Of a DNA stretch of 64,000 nt, positions 58,626 to 64,000 are shown piece after piece; position 1 is the stretch's first letter, and each line of letters begins with the position of its first letter. Origin of the DNA: Polyangia bacterium. Its GTDB lineage: Bacteria; Myxococcota_A; Polyangia; Polyangiales; JAUICN01. The stretch is from NCBI GenBank assembly GCA_030427835.1, contig JAUICN010000008.1, positions 62,001 to 126,000 of the forward strand, given 5' to 3'. The translations under genes and the position numbers were made by a program. The notes beneath the pieces were generated by a model. The model made no database searches. It had not been told where the DNA came from and saw only the letters and a program-made list of their open reading frames with translations.

Positions 58626-59054
58626 ATGAACCATAGCGAGCACCGGGAGTGTCCCACCGGGGACACTCAAACCGCCACCCATGCGCTTTCCCTGGAGGCG
58701 TACACTGACTTGTTGCGCCAGGAACGCCAGGCCGCGCTGGGCGCCGACGTGGGCGCGCTCGTGGCTATTCAGGACGCCAAGCGTACGATCATGGATCAGA
58801 TCCTGGCGTCGAACGCACCGGCCATGGACAACGCTCAACTGGAGCAATGGGCACGGCTTTCCCAAAGCAACATCGCCCTCATCCGTCACCTTTCCCAATG
58901 CCTCCACTCCATGGCAGAAGGAACCGTGTCGGCAGCCACCGGCCACCCCCAGCCCTACCAAGCCCAGGGGTACACACGGCAGGGAGTGCAGCCACAATCC
59001 ACCGCAGAAGGCCAGCGGTACAGGGGTGCCCTACGAAACCGGGGTACACTGTGA
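58626..59054 (+). CDS. flgN: Flagellar chaperone FlgN (for FlgK/FlgL)
   Basis: 142 residues, mainly helical: LSLEAYTDLLRQERQAALGADVGALVAIQDAKRTIMDQIL is the FlgN-like opening, then a helix with ARLSQSNIALIRHLSQCLHSM, a pattern common to FlgN (Q/N-rich helix 3). The last ~40 residues are Gln/Gly-rich and unconserved. Low family conservation, but position between flgM and flgK is diagnostic. The stop overlaps the flgK GTG. Confidence 0.85.
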   Translation: MNHSEHRECPTGDTQTATHALSLEAYTDLLRQERQAALGADVGALVAIQDAKRTIMDQILASNAPAMDNAQLEQWARLSQSNIALIRHLSQCLHSMAEGTVSAATGHPQPYQAQGYTRQGVQPQSTAEGQRYRGALRNRGTL

Positions 59055-60442
59055 GCTCCGTCTTTGGCATATTGAATACTGGGTCCACGGGCCTGACCGC
59101 CAACGGGTTTGGCACGTCGGTCGCTTCCCAAAATCTATCCAATGTGGCCACACCAGGGTACACGCGGCGCATCGCCACACTGGAACCCCTCGGTCCCCGG
59201 CCCCTATCCGGAGTTCGCGCCCAGGGATCCAGCCGGGTGATCGACCCTTTCCTAGAACGGCGAGTACTTGGCAATACCTCCTACCAGGGGGAGTCGGTAG
59301 CCACCGTAGGAACCCTAAATATTCTGGACGTCGCCTTCCAGGACGGTCCCGGTACCGTGGGTACAAGCTTGGACGAGTTCCATGCAGCCCTTGCCGACCT
59401 AAGCACCCACCCCTCCGATCTCGGGGTACGGCAAACCGTGCTGCAACGGGCGCAACAGCTTGCCACGGCGTTCAACCAAACCGCACAGCAGCTTGCCCAG
59501 GCCCGTACGGATACCAACGGCCGTATTTCCCTGGAGGTGCAAGACATCAATCTCAAACTTTCCAACATTGCAGAGCTCGGAACCTCCATCGCCAAATCTG
59601 AGGCGGCGAGCGGACAGGAAGCCAGCGACCTGCGCGACAGGCGAGATCAACTCGTCCGGGAAGTGGCCAAAACCGTACCGGTCACAGCCATCGAGCAATC
59701 CGACGGACAAATCAACCTGCTCCTCAACGGCTCCCTATCGCTGGTTCGACCCGATGGGACCTTTGAGCCCTTGCAGGCCACCGAAGATCTCACCAGTGGA
59801 GATATTCGCATCTACCGCACCACCGCCGGTGCCACCGAGGATGTCACAAACCTCATCGATTCGGGAACGTTGGGAGGCTACTTCCAGGCGCGGGACGGTG
59901 CCCTGCGCACCGCCCAAAACAATCTAGACCAACTCGCGTCCGATTTCGCGACAGCCTACAACGGCGTACACACCGCAGGATTTGGATTGGATGGCGCAAG
60001 TGGGAGAAACCTGTTCGAACCACCTGCCGCAGTTTCCGGCGCTGCACTCAATCTCGCTGTTTCCACAAACGTTTCTGGACAGCCCGACCGGCTCGGCGCC
60101 GCCACCGCGGCCGCTTCCACCCCCGGCGACAACCGCAACGCCCTCGCACTCATGGACCTCCGGGACACCACCTATGCCACCGCCGGAACCCTGACGGGCC
60201 ACGATGCATTTGCATCCATGGTATCCGCTGCGGGCGCATCCCTACAAAGCGCACGGAGCACCGAAACCCACGCCACCGACACCCTCACCCAGGTGAACGC
60301 TCTTCGTGAGGCCACAAGCGGTGTGTCCACAGATGAAGAAATGGTCAGCCTCATGCAGTTTCAACGGGCCTACCAATCCTCCCTGCGTGTCGTGGAAACC
60401 GCAGACCAAATGCTTGCTGAGCTCGTCAACCTCAAACGCTAA
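59051..60442 (+). CDS. flgK: Hook-filament junction protein FlgK (HAP1)
   Basis: 463 residues from GTG 59051; the frame is open upstream to 58847 but that part is flgN in another frame. N-terminus SSVFGILNTGSTGLTANGFGTSVASQNLSNVATPGYTRRIATL; middle FQDGPGTVGTSLDEFHAALADLSTHPSDLGVRQTVLQRAQQLATAFNQ and DLRDRRDQLVREVAKTVPV; C-terminus GVSTDEEMVSLMQFQRAYQSSLRVVETADQMLAELVNLKR. Complete. GTGA overlap with flgN, 48 bp to flgL. Confidence 0.95.
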   Translation: MSSVFGILNTGSTGLTANGFGTSVASQNLSNVATPGYTRRIATLEPLGPRPLSGVRAQGSSRVIDPFLERRVLGNTSYQGESVATVGTLNILDVAFQDGPGTVGTSLDEFHAALADLSTHPSDLGVRQTVLQRAQQLATAFNQTAQQLAQARTDTNGRISLEVQDINLKLSNIAELGTSIAKSEAASGQEASDLRDRRDQLVREVAKTVPVTAIEQSDGQINLLLNGSLSLVRPDGTFEPLQATEDLTSGDIRIYRTTAGATEDVTNLIDSGTLGGYFQARDGALRTAQNNLDQLASDFATAYNGVHTAGFGLDGASGRNLFEPPAAVSGAALNLAVSTNVSGQPDRLGAATAAASTPGDNRNALALMDLRDTTYATAGTLTGHDAFASMVSAAGASLQSARSTETHATDTLTQVNALREATSGVSTDEEMVSLMQFQRAYQSSLRVVETADQMLAELVNLKR

Positions 60443-60490: not shown

Positions 60491-61372
60491 ATGCGCGTAT
60501 CCGACACCCAACTGTACCTTGTTCAACAACACAACCTCCTTGGGGCACGGGCCCGGGTCAACGAGGCACAACGCCAGGCCATCAGCGGAAAACGGGTCGA
60601 AAAACCGTCGGACGACCCCGCAGCATTCGGCATGGCCCGGGGGCTAAACGCCTCCATCGCTCGCTCCGAGGAAAACCTCCGGTCCGTAAGCATGGGGCTC
60701 GCCACACTGCAGGCGGCCGACGCTGCACTGTCGGACGCTGGCAACATTCTCAACCGGGTGCGGGAACTTGCGGTGGGCCAAGCCAACGGAAACCTGGGAG
60801 CCGATGAACGGGCCATCGCTGCCACCGAGGTCACCGAACTACGCAATCAAATGCTCCAGCTAGCCAACGCCACATTCAACGGAAACCACATATTCGCGGG
60901 TTACCAAGACAACGCGCCCGCCTTCGACGCAGCCGGAATCTACCAAGGGGACACGGGAGTCCGATCCCTGGAAGTCGCCCCATCCGTACGAGTAGATAGC
61001 GGGATCACAGGGGATTCTGTCTTTGCCCCCGGCACCGGAGTCAATATTTTCCAGGTCATCGACAACCTCACGGCCGCACTGCAGGCCAACGACCAAACGG
61101 CCACACAAGCCACCCTGGGGGACATCGAAACGGCCACCACACAGATGGCCACCGGACGAGGAAACCTCGGTGGTTTGATGGAATCCATGGAAATTGCGCG
61201 CAGTACTGCAGAAAGAGTTCAGGAAGGGGACCAAATCGCCCGAAGTGATCTGGTAGACGTGGACATTGCGTCCGCATTCTCAGAACTCAACCAGGCCAAC
61301 TACGCTCTGCAAAGCGCAGTGGAAATCGCTTCTCAACTCCCCCTTCCTGGGCTCGTAACACGGGGGCGTTAA
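60491..61372 (+). CDS. flgL: Hook-filament junction protein FlgL (HAP3)
   Basis: 293 residues. Flagellin-like ends: RVSDTQLYLVQQHNLLGARARVNEAQRQAISGKRVEKPSDDPAAFGMARGLNASIARSEENLRSVSMGLATLQAADAALSDAGNILNRVRELAVGQANG is its N-terminal helical region, and DVDIASAFSELNQANYALQSAVEIASQL the C-terminal helix. FNGNHIFAGYQDNAPAFD marks FlgL rather than flagellin. The csrA-fliW fusion starts 12 bp on, so it is translated from the same message. Confidence 0.94.
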   Translation: MRVSDTQLYLVQQHNLLGARARVNEAQRQAISGKRVEKPSDDPAAFGMARGLNASIARSEENLRSVSMGLATLQAADAALSDAGNILNRVRELAVGQANGNLGADERAIAATEVTELRNQMLQLANATFNGNHIFAGYQDNAPAFDAAGIYQGDTGVRSLEVAPSVRVDSGITGDSVFAPGTGVNIFQVIDNLTAALQANDQTATQATLGDIETATTQMATGRGNLGGLMESMEIARSTAERVQEGDQIARSDLVDVDIASAFSELNQANYALQSAVEIASQLPLPGLVTRGR

Positions 61373-61384
61373 TGACCCATCACC

Positions 61385-61984
61385 ATGCTCACCCTAACTC
61401 GACGCCCCGGTGAACGAATCATCATCGGAAACAACATTGAAGTGGTCGTGCTGGAAACGGCTCGAGGAAGAGTTCAGCTTGGGATTGAAGCCCCGAGGGA
61501 ACTGACCATTCACCGGGGGGAGCTCGTGGATCGCATCGGAAAAGAAAACCTCCAGGCCACCCAGGCCCAACAGGATACCGAGGCTGCGGATGAAAACGCC
61601 ATCCACTTCCCCGAGGGAATTTTTGGAATGCCAAGCCACGATCGGTTTCTAGTGTGTGATGTGGCAGAAAGCAGCAACTTCCGGGCACTGGTGTCCTGTG
61701 TCGATCCAAACGTGCAGTTCCTGGTCATCGAGGCCGCCGCAGTATGGCCCGGCTACCCCATACAGGACGCCCAACGGGTAGCCCAGATGGAAGACCAGGA
61801 AGTCGCTGTGGTGGTTATTGCGCGCATCCCAACCGACGAATCCCCCGCCACGGTCAACCTACTCGCCCCAGTCGTCATCAGCCTGTCAGACCGAACCGGA
61901 AAACAGATCATCCTGGACAAGCACGACTTCGGAGTCTGCCACCCCCTGGGCCCCGCCGCAGAAGCTCGACCCGAAGCACAGTAA
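61385..61984 (+). CDS. csrA-fliW: CsrA-FliW fusion: translational regulator joined to its flagellar antagonist
   Basis: 199 residues in one uninterrupted frame. Residues 1-51 are a full CsrA: LTRRPGERIIIG near the start, then VQLGIEAPRELTIHRGELVDRI. The RNA-contacting Leu4 and Arg44 are kept, and Asn55, the position recalled as needed for FliW control of Bacillus CsrA, is Asn. A linker of about 20 residues (Gln/Glu/Ala-rich) joins residues about 72-199, a FliW: IHFPEGIFGM, FRALVSCVDPNVQFLVIEA, VNLLAPVVISLSDRTGKQIIL and HPL. FliW's usual first strand appears lost. In Bacillus the separate proteins form the Hag-FliW-CsrA partner switch that tunes flagellin translation. Placement after flgM-flgN-flgK-flgL matches the Bacillus operon. 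No Shine-Dalgarno is seen, so translation is probably coupled to flgL. Confidence 0.93.
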   Translation: MLTLTRRPGERIIIGNNIEVVVLETARGRVQLGIEAPRELTIHRGELVDRIGKENLQATQAQQDTEAADENAIHFPEGIFGMPSHDRFLVCDVAESSNFRALVSCVDPNVQFLVIEAAAVWPGYPIQDAQRVAQMEDQEVAVVVIARIPTDESPATVNLLAPVVISLSDRTGKQIILDKHDFGVCHPLGPAAEARPEAQ

Positions 61985-61990
61985 CCACCT
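61918..61990 (+). repeat. 73-bp direct repeat, copy 1 (3' end of csrA-fliW)
   Basis: Encodes the last 21 residues of the fusion plus stop and 6 bp. It recurs at 62269-62341 with a single T-to-C difference, offset by 351 bp, so the tail of the gene has been copied across the repeat array. Confidence 0.92.
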
Positions 61991-61998
61991 TCCTACAC

Positions 61999-62265
61999 CG
62001 CGAGCACAGACCAGCGCACGGTGATGGGGAGGAGTCGGTGGCTCTGCCGCCGCGACGGGGAAACCTCGGAAGGTTTCCCAAAAACAACGCGAGCGCAGAC
62101 GAGCGCACGGTGATGGGGAGGAGTCGGTGGCTCTGCCGCCGCGTCGGGGAAACCTCGGAAGGTTTCCCAAAAACAACGCGAGCGCAGACGAGCGCACGGT
62201 GATGGGGAGGAGTCGGCGGCTCTGCCGCCGCGACGGGGAAACCTCGGAAGGTTTCCCAAAAACGC
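61999..62265 (+). repeat. Three tandem 89-bp repeats with two hairpins each
   Basis: Units begin at 61999, 62088 and 62177, an exact 89-bp period, nearly identical. On the + strand each folds into CGG(T/C)GGC-TCT-GCCGCCG and then GGGAAACCT-CGGA-AGGTTTCCC (first unit 62058-62079), with an unpaired GGGGAGGAG before them. The second hairpin exposes GGA in its loop. A run of A follows, not T, so they are not terminators for either neighbour. A diverged single copy in reverse orientation lies at 7185-7254. No spacers, so not CRISPR. Confidence 0.93.
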
Positions 62266-62268
62266 AGC

Positions 62269-62341
62269 CAAGCACGACTTCGGAGTCTGCCACCCCCTGG
62301 GCCCCGCCGCAGAAGCCCGACCCGAAGCACAGTAACCACCT
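62269..62341 (+). repeat. 73-bp direct repeat, copy 2 (duplicated csrA-fliW tail)
   Basis: Second copy of 61918-61990, after the tandem array. It retains the in-frame KHDFGVCHPLGPAAEARPEAQ-stop coding sense but has no start, so it is a gene fragment. It marks a duplication or insertion event and ends 10 bp from the methyltransferase stop. Confidence 0.92.
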
Positions 62342-62350
62342 GCAATTCGT

Positions 62351-63373
62351 CTATTCCACCTGGACCAGAAAAAGGTGCTCCTTGTTGGTCAGATGACCCA
62401 CTCGCCCCACCCTGTTTCCATCTGGATTGTAAATGCCGATTTGTGCACCCACGTACCGGGGGTAATCCACGGAGTCCGTACGCACAGACCCCACCCCTGA
62501 CAACAGCTCCACCAGCTGCTCCTCGGTCAGATGTCCCTCCGAACTGAACGAAACGAGCAAGTACCGGGCACGTTTCGAAAGGGCCTGTACCACATCCGAC
62601 AGGGCCTGATGGATTCTGGGCTTTGAGTTGAACGCACTCCTGTAGTCCTTGCAATCCACGCGCTTGCAGGCCGTACCGTACACCTCAGGCTTGTCCCAAC
62701 GAATCAAGGATTCCCACACATGATAATTGTTCATGTACTTGTGTTGGTTGTAGGGAGGATCCAGGTACACCAAATCCCACAACTTCCCTTCCGAAGGCGT
62801 TCCTTGAGCGGCCTCCAACGCATCCAGGTTCCATGCTCTACCCGTTCCCGGCAACACATCTGGCATCCTCAGTTGCAAATCGTTGTTCGCCCGGGCCGCC
62901 CACTGTTTCAAATAGGCCATCTGCAGCCCACAGGTCGAATCCACACGATCGGTGGCTTCCATGAGCGACACCAGCACCACAGCGCGCACATCCGATCTCA
63001 AATCCAACCGATCGATCTCAGTACGCATGGCATCCACCCGGGCACCATTTTTGGGATGCACGTACCGTGACTGCCTACAAAAAGTCTCGGTAAAATATCC
63101 CTCCTCCGGAACCACCCCGTTAAGGTGCTCCAACACCCGTCGCACTTCTTCCGCCACCGCATCCCGATCGGCGGCCACGTAGCACTGGGCCAACACATGG
63201 GCATAGGCGGTGTGGTCGTTTGCCGTTACTTGGTACCCCTGGCTCTTCAACCCATGACCCACACGGGAGGTGCCGCTGAAGAGATCCAACACATGCCGAA
63301 CATCCGGCAACGACTTCACCGTTTCCAGAATCGCACCCATCAATTTGCGTTTCGAACCCAGGTACTTGATCAC
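62351..63373 (-). CDS. D12-class DNA adenine N6-methyltransferase, orphan
   Basis: 340 residues. Transfers methyl from SAM to adenine in DNA. Start MIKYLGSKRKLMGAIL is the D12-class (Dam-like) opening; SAM motif VLDLFSGTSRVGHGLKSQGY (39-58); catalytic motif DPPYNQHKYMNNYHVWE. No restriction endonuclease gene is next to it, so it may be solitary or belong to a system beyond the window. It reads toward the repeat array. Target sequence cannot be inferred. Confidence 0.88.
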   Translation of the reverse strand: MIKYLGSKRKLMGAILETVKSLPDVRHVLDLFSGTSRVGHGLKSQGYQVTANDHTAYAHVLAQCYVAADRDAVAEEVRRVLEHLNGVVPEEGYFTETFCRQSRYVHPKNGARVDAMRTEIDRLDLRSDVRAVVLVSLMEATDRVDSTCGLQMAYLKQWAARANNDLQLRMPDVLPGTGRAWNLDALEAAQGTPSEGKLWDLVYLDPPYNQHKYMNNYHVWESLIRWDKPEVYGTACKRVDCKDYRSAFNSKPRIHQALSDVVQALSKRARYLLVSFSSEGHLTEEQLVELLSGVGSVRTDSVDYPRYVGAQIGIYNPDGNRVGRVGHLTNKEHLFLVQVE

Positions 63374-63444: not shown

Positions 63445-64000
63445 ATGAACCTTTCCCTACCGTTGCACCCCGCAAACACGCCCCTAGACGCCCCAAACCA
63501 ACAATGGGGTGACTGGAAGTGGCAGGCCCGTCACGCCCTCACCACACTGAAGCAACTTCAGGAAAGGTTTCAGCTCACTCCTGAGGAGGTGCGTGGAACC
63601 GCACGTGCCCTCGTGCAGGGCCTGCCCCTATCGGTGACCCCGTACTACGCATCCCTTGGTGACCCCGTGGACCCCCATTGCCCGATTCGGCAACAGTGCA
63701 TTCCGAACATCTTGGAGGACACAGAGATCCCCGGGGATCTACAGGACCCACTCGGAGAAGAAAAACATGAGGTCGCCCCCCATCTGGTGCAACGCTACCC
63801 GGACCGGGCACTGTTGCTCGTGACCGATCGGTGCGGAGTCTATTGCCGTTTCTGCACGCGTTCGCGGATGGTGGGTCAAGGCACACCCGAACAGGGCCCC
63901 GGCGCCCGCAATCTAAAAAGCCTAGAGCCCGCGTTTCAATACCTCCGAAACCACCCCGAAGTTCAGGACGTCATCGTTTCCGGCGGAGACCCGGGGCTGC
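63445..64000 (+). CDS. kamA: Lysine 2,3-aminomutase family radical SAM enzyme, 3'-truncated by the window edge
   Basis: 185 residues seen, no stop before the edge. KamA moves the lysine amino group from C2 to C3 using SAM, PLP and a 4Fe-4S cluster. Seen: PLSVTPYYASLGDPVDPHCPIRQQCIP (family opening), DPLGEEKHEVAPHLVQRYPDRALLLVTDRC, the cluster motif CxxxCxxC (Cys130, 134, 137) in CGVYCRFCTRSRMVG, and VIVSGGDPG at the edge. Wording of these motifs is closer to KamA than to EpmB. PLP and lysine-binding parts lie outside. Divergent from the DNA methyltransferase, 71 bp apart. Confidence 0.9.
   Translation, partial: MNLSLPLHPANTPLDAPNQQWGDWKWQARHALTTLKQLQERFQLTPEEVRGTARALVQGLPLSVTPYYASLGDPVDPHCPIRQQCIPNILEDTEIPGDLQDPLGEEKHEVAPHLVQRYPDRALLLVTDRCGVYCRFCTRSRMVGQGTPEQGPGARNLKSLEPAFQYLRNHPEVQDVIVSGGDPGL

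Follow-up and report, generated by a model that had tools for sequence, protein, structure and literature searches.

CsrA is an RNA-binding repressor of flagellin synthesis and FliW is its protein antagonist, and the two are normally made as separate proteins. The locus described here raises the question of whether both can be encoded by one gene and, if so, what becomes of the regulation when repressor and antagonist share a chain. The gene lies in the window, that is, the whole 64,000-nucleotide stretch of Polyangia bacterium contig JAUICN010000008.1 that was analysed (Table 1). With such a protein the textbook three-partner switch (flagellin-FliW-CsrA) becomes dissectable in one purified protein, and the fusion is a natural test both of the role of the FliW first strand and of whether antagonist and target must come apart.

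Table 1. Features at the fusion locus, in window coordinates
Feature	Coordinates	Strand	Basis
flgK ORF	58847..60442	+	TIGR02492 from residue 75
flgL, directly upstream, with 12 nt between its TAA and the fusion start	60491..61372	+	TIGR02550, 191.7 bits
csrA-fliW fusion gene	61385..61984	+	199 aa plus stop, open from ATG to TAA
CsrA domain, residues 1-51, L4 and R44 kept	61385..61537	+	PF02599, 73.2 bits (cut-off 27; profile positions 1-51 of 53); AlphaFold2 strands 11-35
CsrA helix with FliW-contact residues I51 and N55	61517..61555	+	AlphaFold2 helix 45-70; C. jejuni V51/N55 data (PMC7829508)
Joint, 16 residues (59-74), replaces FliW first strand	61559..61606	+	Helical to residue 70 (AlphaFold2)
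FliW domain without N-terminal strand	61601..61948	+	PF02623, 81.5 bits (cut-off 25; residues 73-188, profile positions 1-122 of 122); fold match 5dmb/5dmd/2aj7, Z ~16

One covalent CsrA-FliW chain is encoded at this locus. The preliminary description, made from the sequence alone, had read it as a complete CsrA, with Leu4, Arg44 and Asn55 kept, joined in one protein to an FliW without its first strand, and this reading is borne out: a single frame of 199 codons passes the Pfam cut-offs of both families, the three CsrA residues are all found in the window protein, whose PF02599 match covers residues 1-51, and the strand is likewise missing from every fusion found. A frameshift or stop hidden between the two halves, the weakness that the preliminary description had raised, is contradicted by 12 other genomes that carry the same full-length single open frame, so that the fusion is neither a chance event nor a sequencing frameshift; with 13 genomes in hand, a sequencing or assembly artefact is ruled out as its source. 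No in-frame internal start is common to the 13 fusions. The NCBIfam equivalog models score below their cut-offs on the fusion (84 bits against 165 for the best FliW model and 65.3 against 73 for the best CsrA model), and one half may therefore be overlooked by annotation pipelines. A search of the whole genome (98.3% complete) for each family found the fusion to be both its sole CsrA and its sole FliW, and the same genome encodes four flagellins and FliS.

When fusions were sought in other genomes and placed on a phylogeny, as had been suggested at the outset, full-length fusions without internal stops were found in 13 of the 184 genomes searched within the order, distributed over five families (f1, f3, f5, f63 and f64). 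In a tree built on the combined core sequences of CsrA and FliW, all 13 fall into a single clade (support 99/98) whose closest neighbours are separate csrA/fliW pairs of the same order, a topology that fits a single fusion event. Two further candidates whose matches span most of the query (L002 and L004) each proved to be two adjacent genes. In other lineages of the class csrA and fliW are separate and adjacent, and across the rest of the phylum fliW mostly comes shortly after csrA, in many cases through a GTGA stop/start overlap. Because the two genes mostly lie so close together, the fusion could stem from joined neighbours, and adjacent csrA-fliW pairs are its probable source. Among the matches listed for 398 genomes of the phylum of Syntrophomonas (Bacillota), for 396 genomes from the phylum to which an Acidobacteriota genome belongs and for a plasmid collection, no full-length fusion was present, only separate genes. 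Within the fusion order, flagellin is absent from 12 genomes that gave no CsrA or FliW match, in line with a flagellar role. One genome without such a match (G062) has two flagellins (L138 and L147), and their leaders are without the GGA hairpin described below.

A different arrangement is encountered in family f13, which belongs to the same class: there fliW lies in the -1 frame relative to csrA and the two genes overlap (L070-L074, L076, L080 and L085). Since the two genes are in different frames, an in-frame fusion is ruled out there. The f13 fliW keeps strand 1, yet no ATG, GTG or TTG start occurs within 40 codons. In four species of one genus of this family the variable sites follow a rhythm of 3, 3 and 27 over codon positions 1-3 of csrA, which gives way to a rhythm of 3, 3 and 9 in fliW, and the switch precedes the csrA stop. 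No classical slippery heptamer was seen. It is possible that a CsrA::FliW protein is made here by a -1 frameshift, or that fliW starts at an unusual codon; the former, if true, would amount to a second way of linking CsrA to FliW.

The fusion gene comes after flgK and flgL, and those fusions inspected adjoin flgL on its downstream side. The true start of the flgK gene of the window is probably some 70 codons inside its ORF. Directly behind the fusion gene, three tandem 89-nt units, each with the inverted repeat GGGAAACCTCGGAAGGTTTCCC, occupy positions 61995-62263. A final stretch of 73 nt around the 3′ end of the fusion gene (61918-61990) is duplicated at 62269-62341 with 99% identity, beyond these units, and the 89-nt repeats thus have a copy of the gene end on either side. 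Further on are a D12-class adenine DNA methyltransferase (62351-63373, minus strand) and a KamA/lysine 2,3-aminomutase-like radical SAM protein (63445-63999, plus strand). Behind the fusion in two other genomes, a putative PilT-type ATPase was recognised by eye (L009:350-1813 and L011:338-1450, minus strand).

The CsrA half retains the residues expected of an RNA-binding protein that is contacted by FliW. Residues T5, R6, G9, G15, R44 and E46 are invariant in the alignment of the 13 fusions, L4 and N55 are each kept in 12, and position 51 is isoleucine or valine in 12 (alanine in L049); the exception at position 55 is an isoleucine in L011. In an alanine scan of Campylobacter jejuni CsrA, V51 and N55 were the only two residues needed for FliW binding (PMC7829508). 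The features of an FliW-regulated CsrA are found together in the window protein: a hydrophobic residue at 51, N55, and a helix past strand 5, predicted from residue 45. Modelled with AlphaFold2 (mean pLDDT 89.5, pTM 0.68; a monomer, with no bearing on FliW docking), the window protein consists of the CsrA strands, a helix that spans residues 45-70 and an FliW fold. The first part of the model matches solved CsrA structures with Z up to 5.7, and the FliW part matches solved FliW structures (Table 1). Between A58 and F75 the 13 fusions have a joint of 16 to 23 residues, which holds prolines in several of them. In a second model, of the relative L012, the helix extends only to residue 57 and is followed by a less ordered, non-helical joint that contains prolines, so that a continuous or rigid helical joint is ruled out as a general trait.

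Unfused FliW proteins of the phylum start some 18-20 residues ahead of an FPxGxxG core, and their first strand has the form M-x-I-x-T-x-RFG-x-IEV. This strand is present in nearly all unfused relatives and gone in 13/13 fusions, where only the 16-23 residues of the joint separate CsrA residue 58 from the core. In Bacillus subtilis, hydrogen-deuterium exchange showed that flagellin protects FliW residues 3-11, 22-28 and 95-115 (PMC6070490). By sequence position, residues 3-11 correspond to the strand that is missing from the fusions, and the two other protected segments, as placed by eye, would fall at or close to FPxGxxG and the strand that precedes a second conserved motif, NLxAP. Fused and unfused FliW alike retain the two motifs (F75, G78, G81, N158, L159, A161, P162, G172 and Q174 in window protein numbering). 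In the same numbering, W101, Q103, F112 and P117 of unfused FliW are replaced in the fusions, mostly by A or V, V, L and A, respectively. Judged from these alignments, part of the flagellin surface of the fused FliW is lost and part is under selection. In two members of genus g311 of family f13 (L093 and L095), an unfused fliW has a GTG start, within a GTGA overlap, only five codons before the core, and this FliW is therefore also without the first strand.

A candidate RNA target was sought in the flagellin genes of genomes that carry the fusion; the leaders were defined under two start-calling schemes. Under the first scheme, 26/26 leaders have a GGA in the region 27-50 nt ahead of the start codon, and in 21 of them this GGA sits in a hairpin loop at a distance of 33-48 nt. 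Typical hairpins are CCGAGUC-GGGAU-GACUCGG and GGGUC-GGGAU-GACCC. Most often 20-26 nt further on, a second GGA is found in the Shine-Dalgarno sequence. The stems covary: 118 of 156 cells of the symmetric stem are paired, as against 89 +/- 4 when the 3′ arms are dealt out among the sequences, and none of 5000 such permutations reached as high a value. Up to six pair types occur at a stem position, and pairing is clearly lower when the arms are slid. Under the second scheme, the hairpin is present in 14/23 fusion leaders, several of which have a mis-set start, and in 1/29 leaders from 11 non-fusion relatives (ten with separate genes and one without CsrA or FliW). Counted by genome, the hairpin occurs in 11/13 fusion genomes and 1/11 non-fusion relatives; the leader sequences are related, and Fisher values therefore overstate their independence, but the hairpin nevertheless covaries. 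Flagellin leaders with double CsrA sites thus go together with the fusion in this lineage. The pattern, two CsrA-type GGA sites with one at the Shine-Dalgarno sequence, is that of the leader in the Hag-FliW-CsrA module, and flagellin mRNA, with these sites conserved, is the likely target of the CsrA half.

We infer that the protein is a one-chain regulator of flagellin homeostasis, in which tethered FliW would restrain CsrA and flagellin would lift the restraint, and assign this reading a probability of about 0.5. Here, the CsrA half would dimerise and bridge the two GGA sites, one in the loop and one in the Shine-Dalgarno sequence, so that ribosome binding to flagellin mRNA would be blocked. 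Tethered FliW would dock on the helix that bears residues 51 and 55 and lower RNA binding; the preliminary description had taken this docking to be intramolecular, but the helix could be that of the same chain or that of the other protomer. Flagellin accumulating in the cytoplasm would bind the FliW domain and undock it, whereupon CsrA would repress; each dimer would read flagellin directly and a diffusing antagonist would be dispensed with. In favour of this reading are the single frame, its sole-copy status, the clade of 13 genomes, a hydrophobic residue 51, R44 in 13/13 and N55 in 12/13 fusions, the retained FPxGxxG and NLxAP motifs, the covarying leader hairpins with their near absence from non-fusion relatives, and the presence of FliS and four flagellins. 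Against it stand the loss of strand 1 in 13/13, the replacement of residues 101, 103, 112 and 117 and the isoleucine at position 55 of L011. The flagellin step is its least secure part because the missing first strand, which the preliminary description had mentioned as a detail, is one that flagellin protects in B. subtilis FliW.

That same loss is the starting point of the main rival, in which the FliW half would have lost flagellin binding and become a fixed structural or tuning arm, leaving CsrA to repress flagellin translation without sensing. The arm might confer stability, weaken RNA affinity or respond to another ligand, and the replaced positions of the unfused WLQS, F and P motifs would be explained along with the strand. 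A mere arm would have no need of FPxGxxG, NLxAP, G172 and Q174, however, and fusion has not lessened the conservation of these relative to unfused FliW; nor would it account for N55, which is dispensable for RNA binding in C. jejuni yet kept in 12/13 fusions. An arm blind to flagellin is on balance unlikely, although it deserves more weight than any other competitor of the one-chain regulator.

The double CsrA sites conserved at the flagellin start can also be accommodated by an mRNA-local chaperone, whereby CsrA would anchor FliW on flagellin mRNA and FliW would catch the N terminus of nascent flagellin, giving feedback on each transcript. B. subtilis FliW does bind the first 60-72 residues of flagellin (PMC6070490), but CsrA bound at a Shine-Dalgarno sequence should block translation rather than accompany it, and such a chaperone seems quite improbable. 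Slightly more remote is a cis-acting sensor in which CsrA at the two GGA sites would hold FliW beside the ribosome, where FliW would read the emerging flagellin N terminus; if true, translation of the same mRNA would be adjusted and the feedback would be independent of the free flagellin pool. Equally improbable is a split in the cell, through proteolysis in the joint or internal initiation, into halves that act as ordinary CsrA plus FliW. A GTG at codon 48 of the window gene, after a purine-rich stretch, an ATG at codon 82 and the variable joint length could be taken in its favour; yet codon 48 is GTC, GTA, ATC, CTC or TTG elsewhere among the 13 fusions, which leaves internal starts unconserved, a start at codon 82 would remove the conserved FPxGxxG, and a cleaved FliW would still be without strand 1.

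The one-chain regulator is best compared with the Hag-FliW-CsrA module of B. subtilis, with which it shares (PMC6529632 and PMC7652899) both protein families, two CsrA sites in the leader (as in the hag 5′ UTR; PMC6070490), N55 and FliS. It differs in having one chain instead of two, an FliW without strand 1 and no diffusing antagonist. The preliminary description had held that a covalent link changes the logic by fixing antagonist and target at 1:1; the fixed ratio stands, given a covalent protein that is the sole copy, but the change is smaller than supposed, as Hag, FliW and the CsrA dimer are already near 1:1:1 in B. subtilis (PMC6529632). What the fusion does give, and enforce, is two FliW units per CsrA dimer, in which it departs from the B. 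subtilis module. The C. jejuni CsrA-FliW pair is similar in the use of CsrA residues 51 and 55 and in a leader with two GGA sites (PMC4894983 and PMC7829508), and PMC4894983 places these in two hexaloops at 21-nt spacing in the flagellin leader; there, in contrast, csrA and fliW are separate and non-adjacent. The adjacent csrA-fliW pairs of the phylum (for example L082 and L083, with stop/start overlap) have the same gene order, csrA then fliW, and differ in that fliW has its own start codon and a full strand 1, and in that the leaders of unfused relatives rarely carry the GGA hairpin. In the passages found in open-access papers on CsrA-FliW and on CsrA distribution, CsrA and FliW are presented as distinct proteins and no fused CsrA-FliW is mentioned; a prior mention is possible. 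The fusion is a variation on the known flagellin-FliW-CsrA module and not a new kind of system, one in which a known protein-partner switch has probably been turned into a switch inside one molecule.
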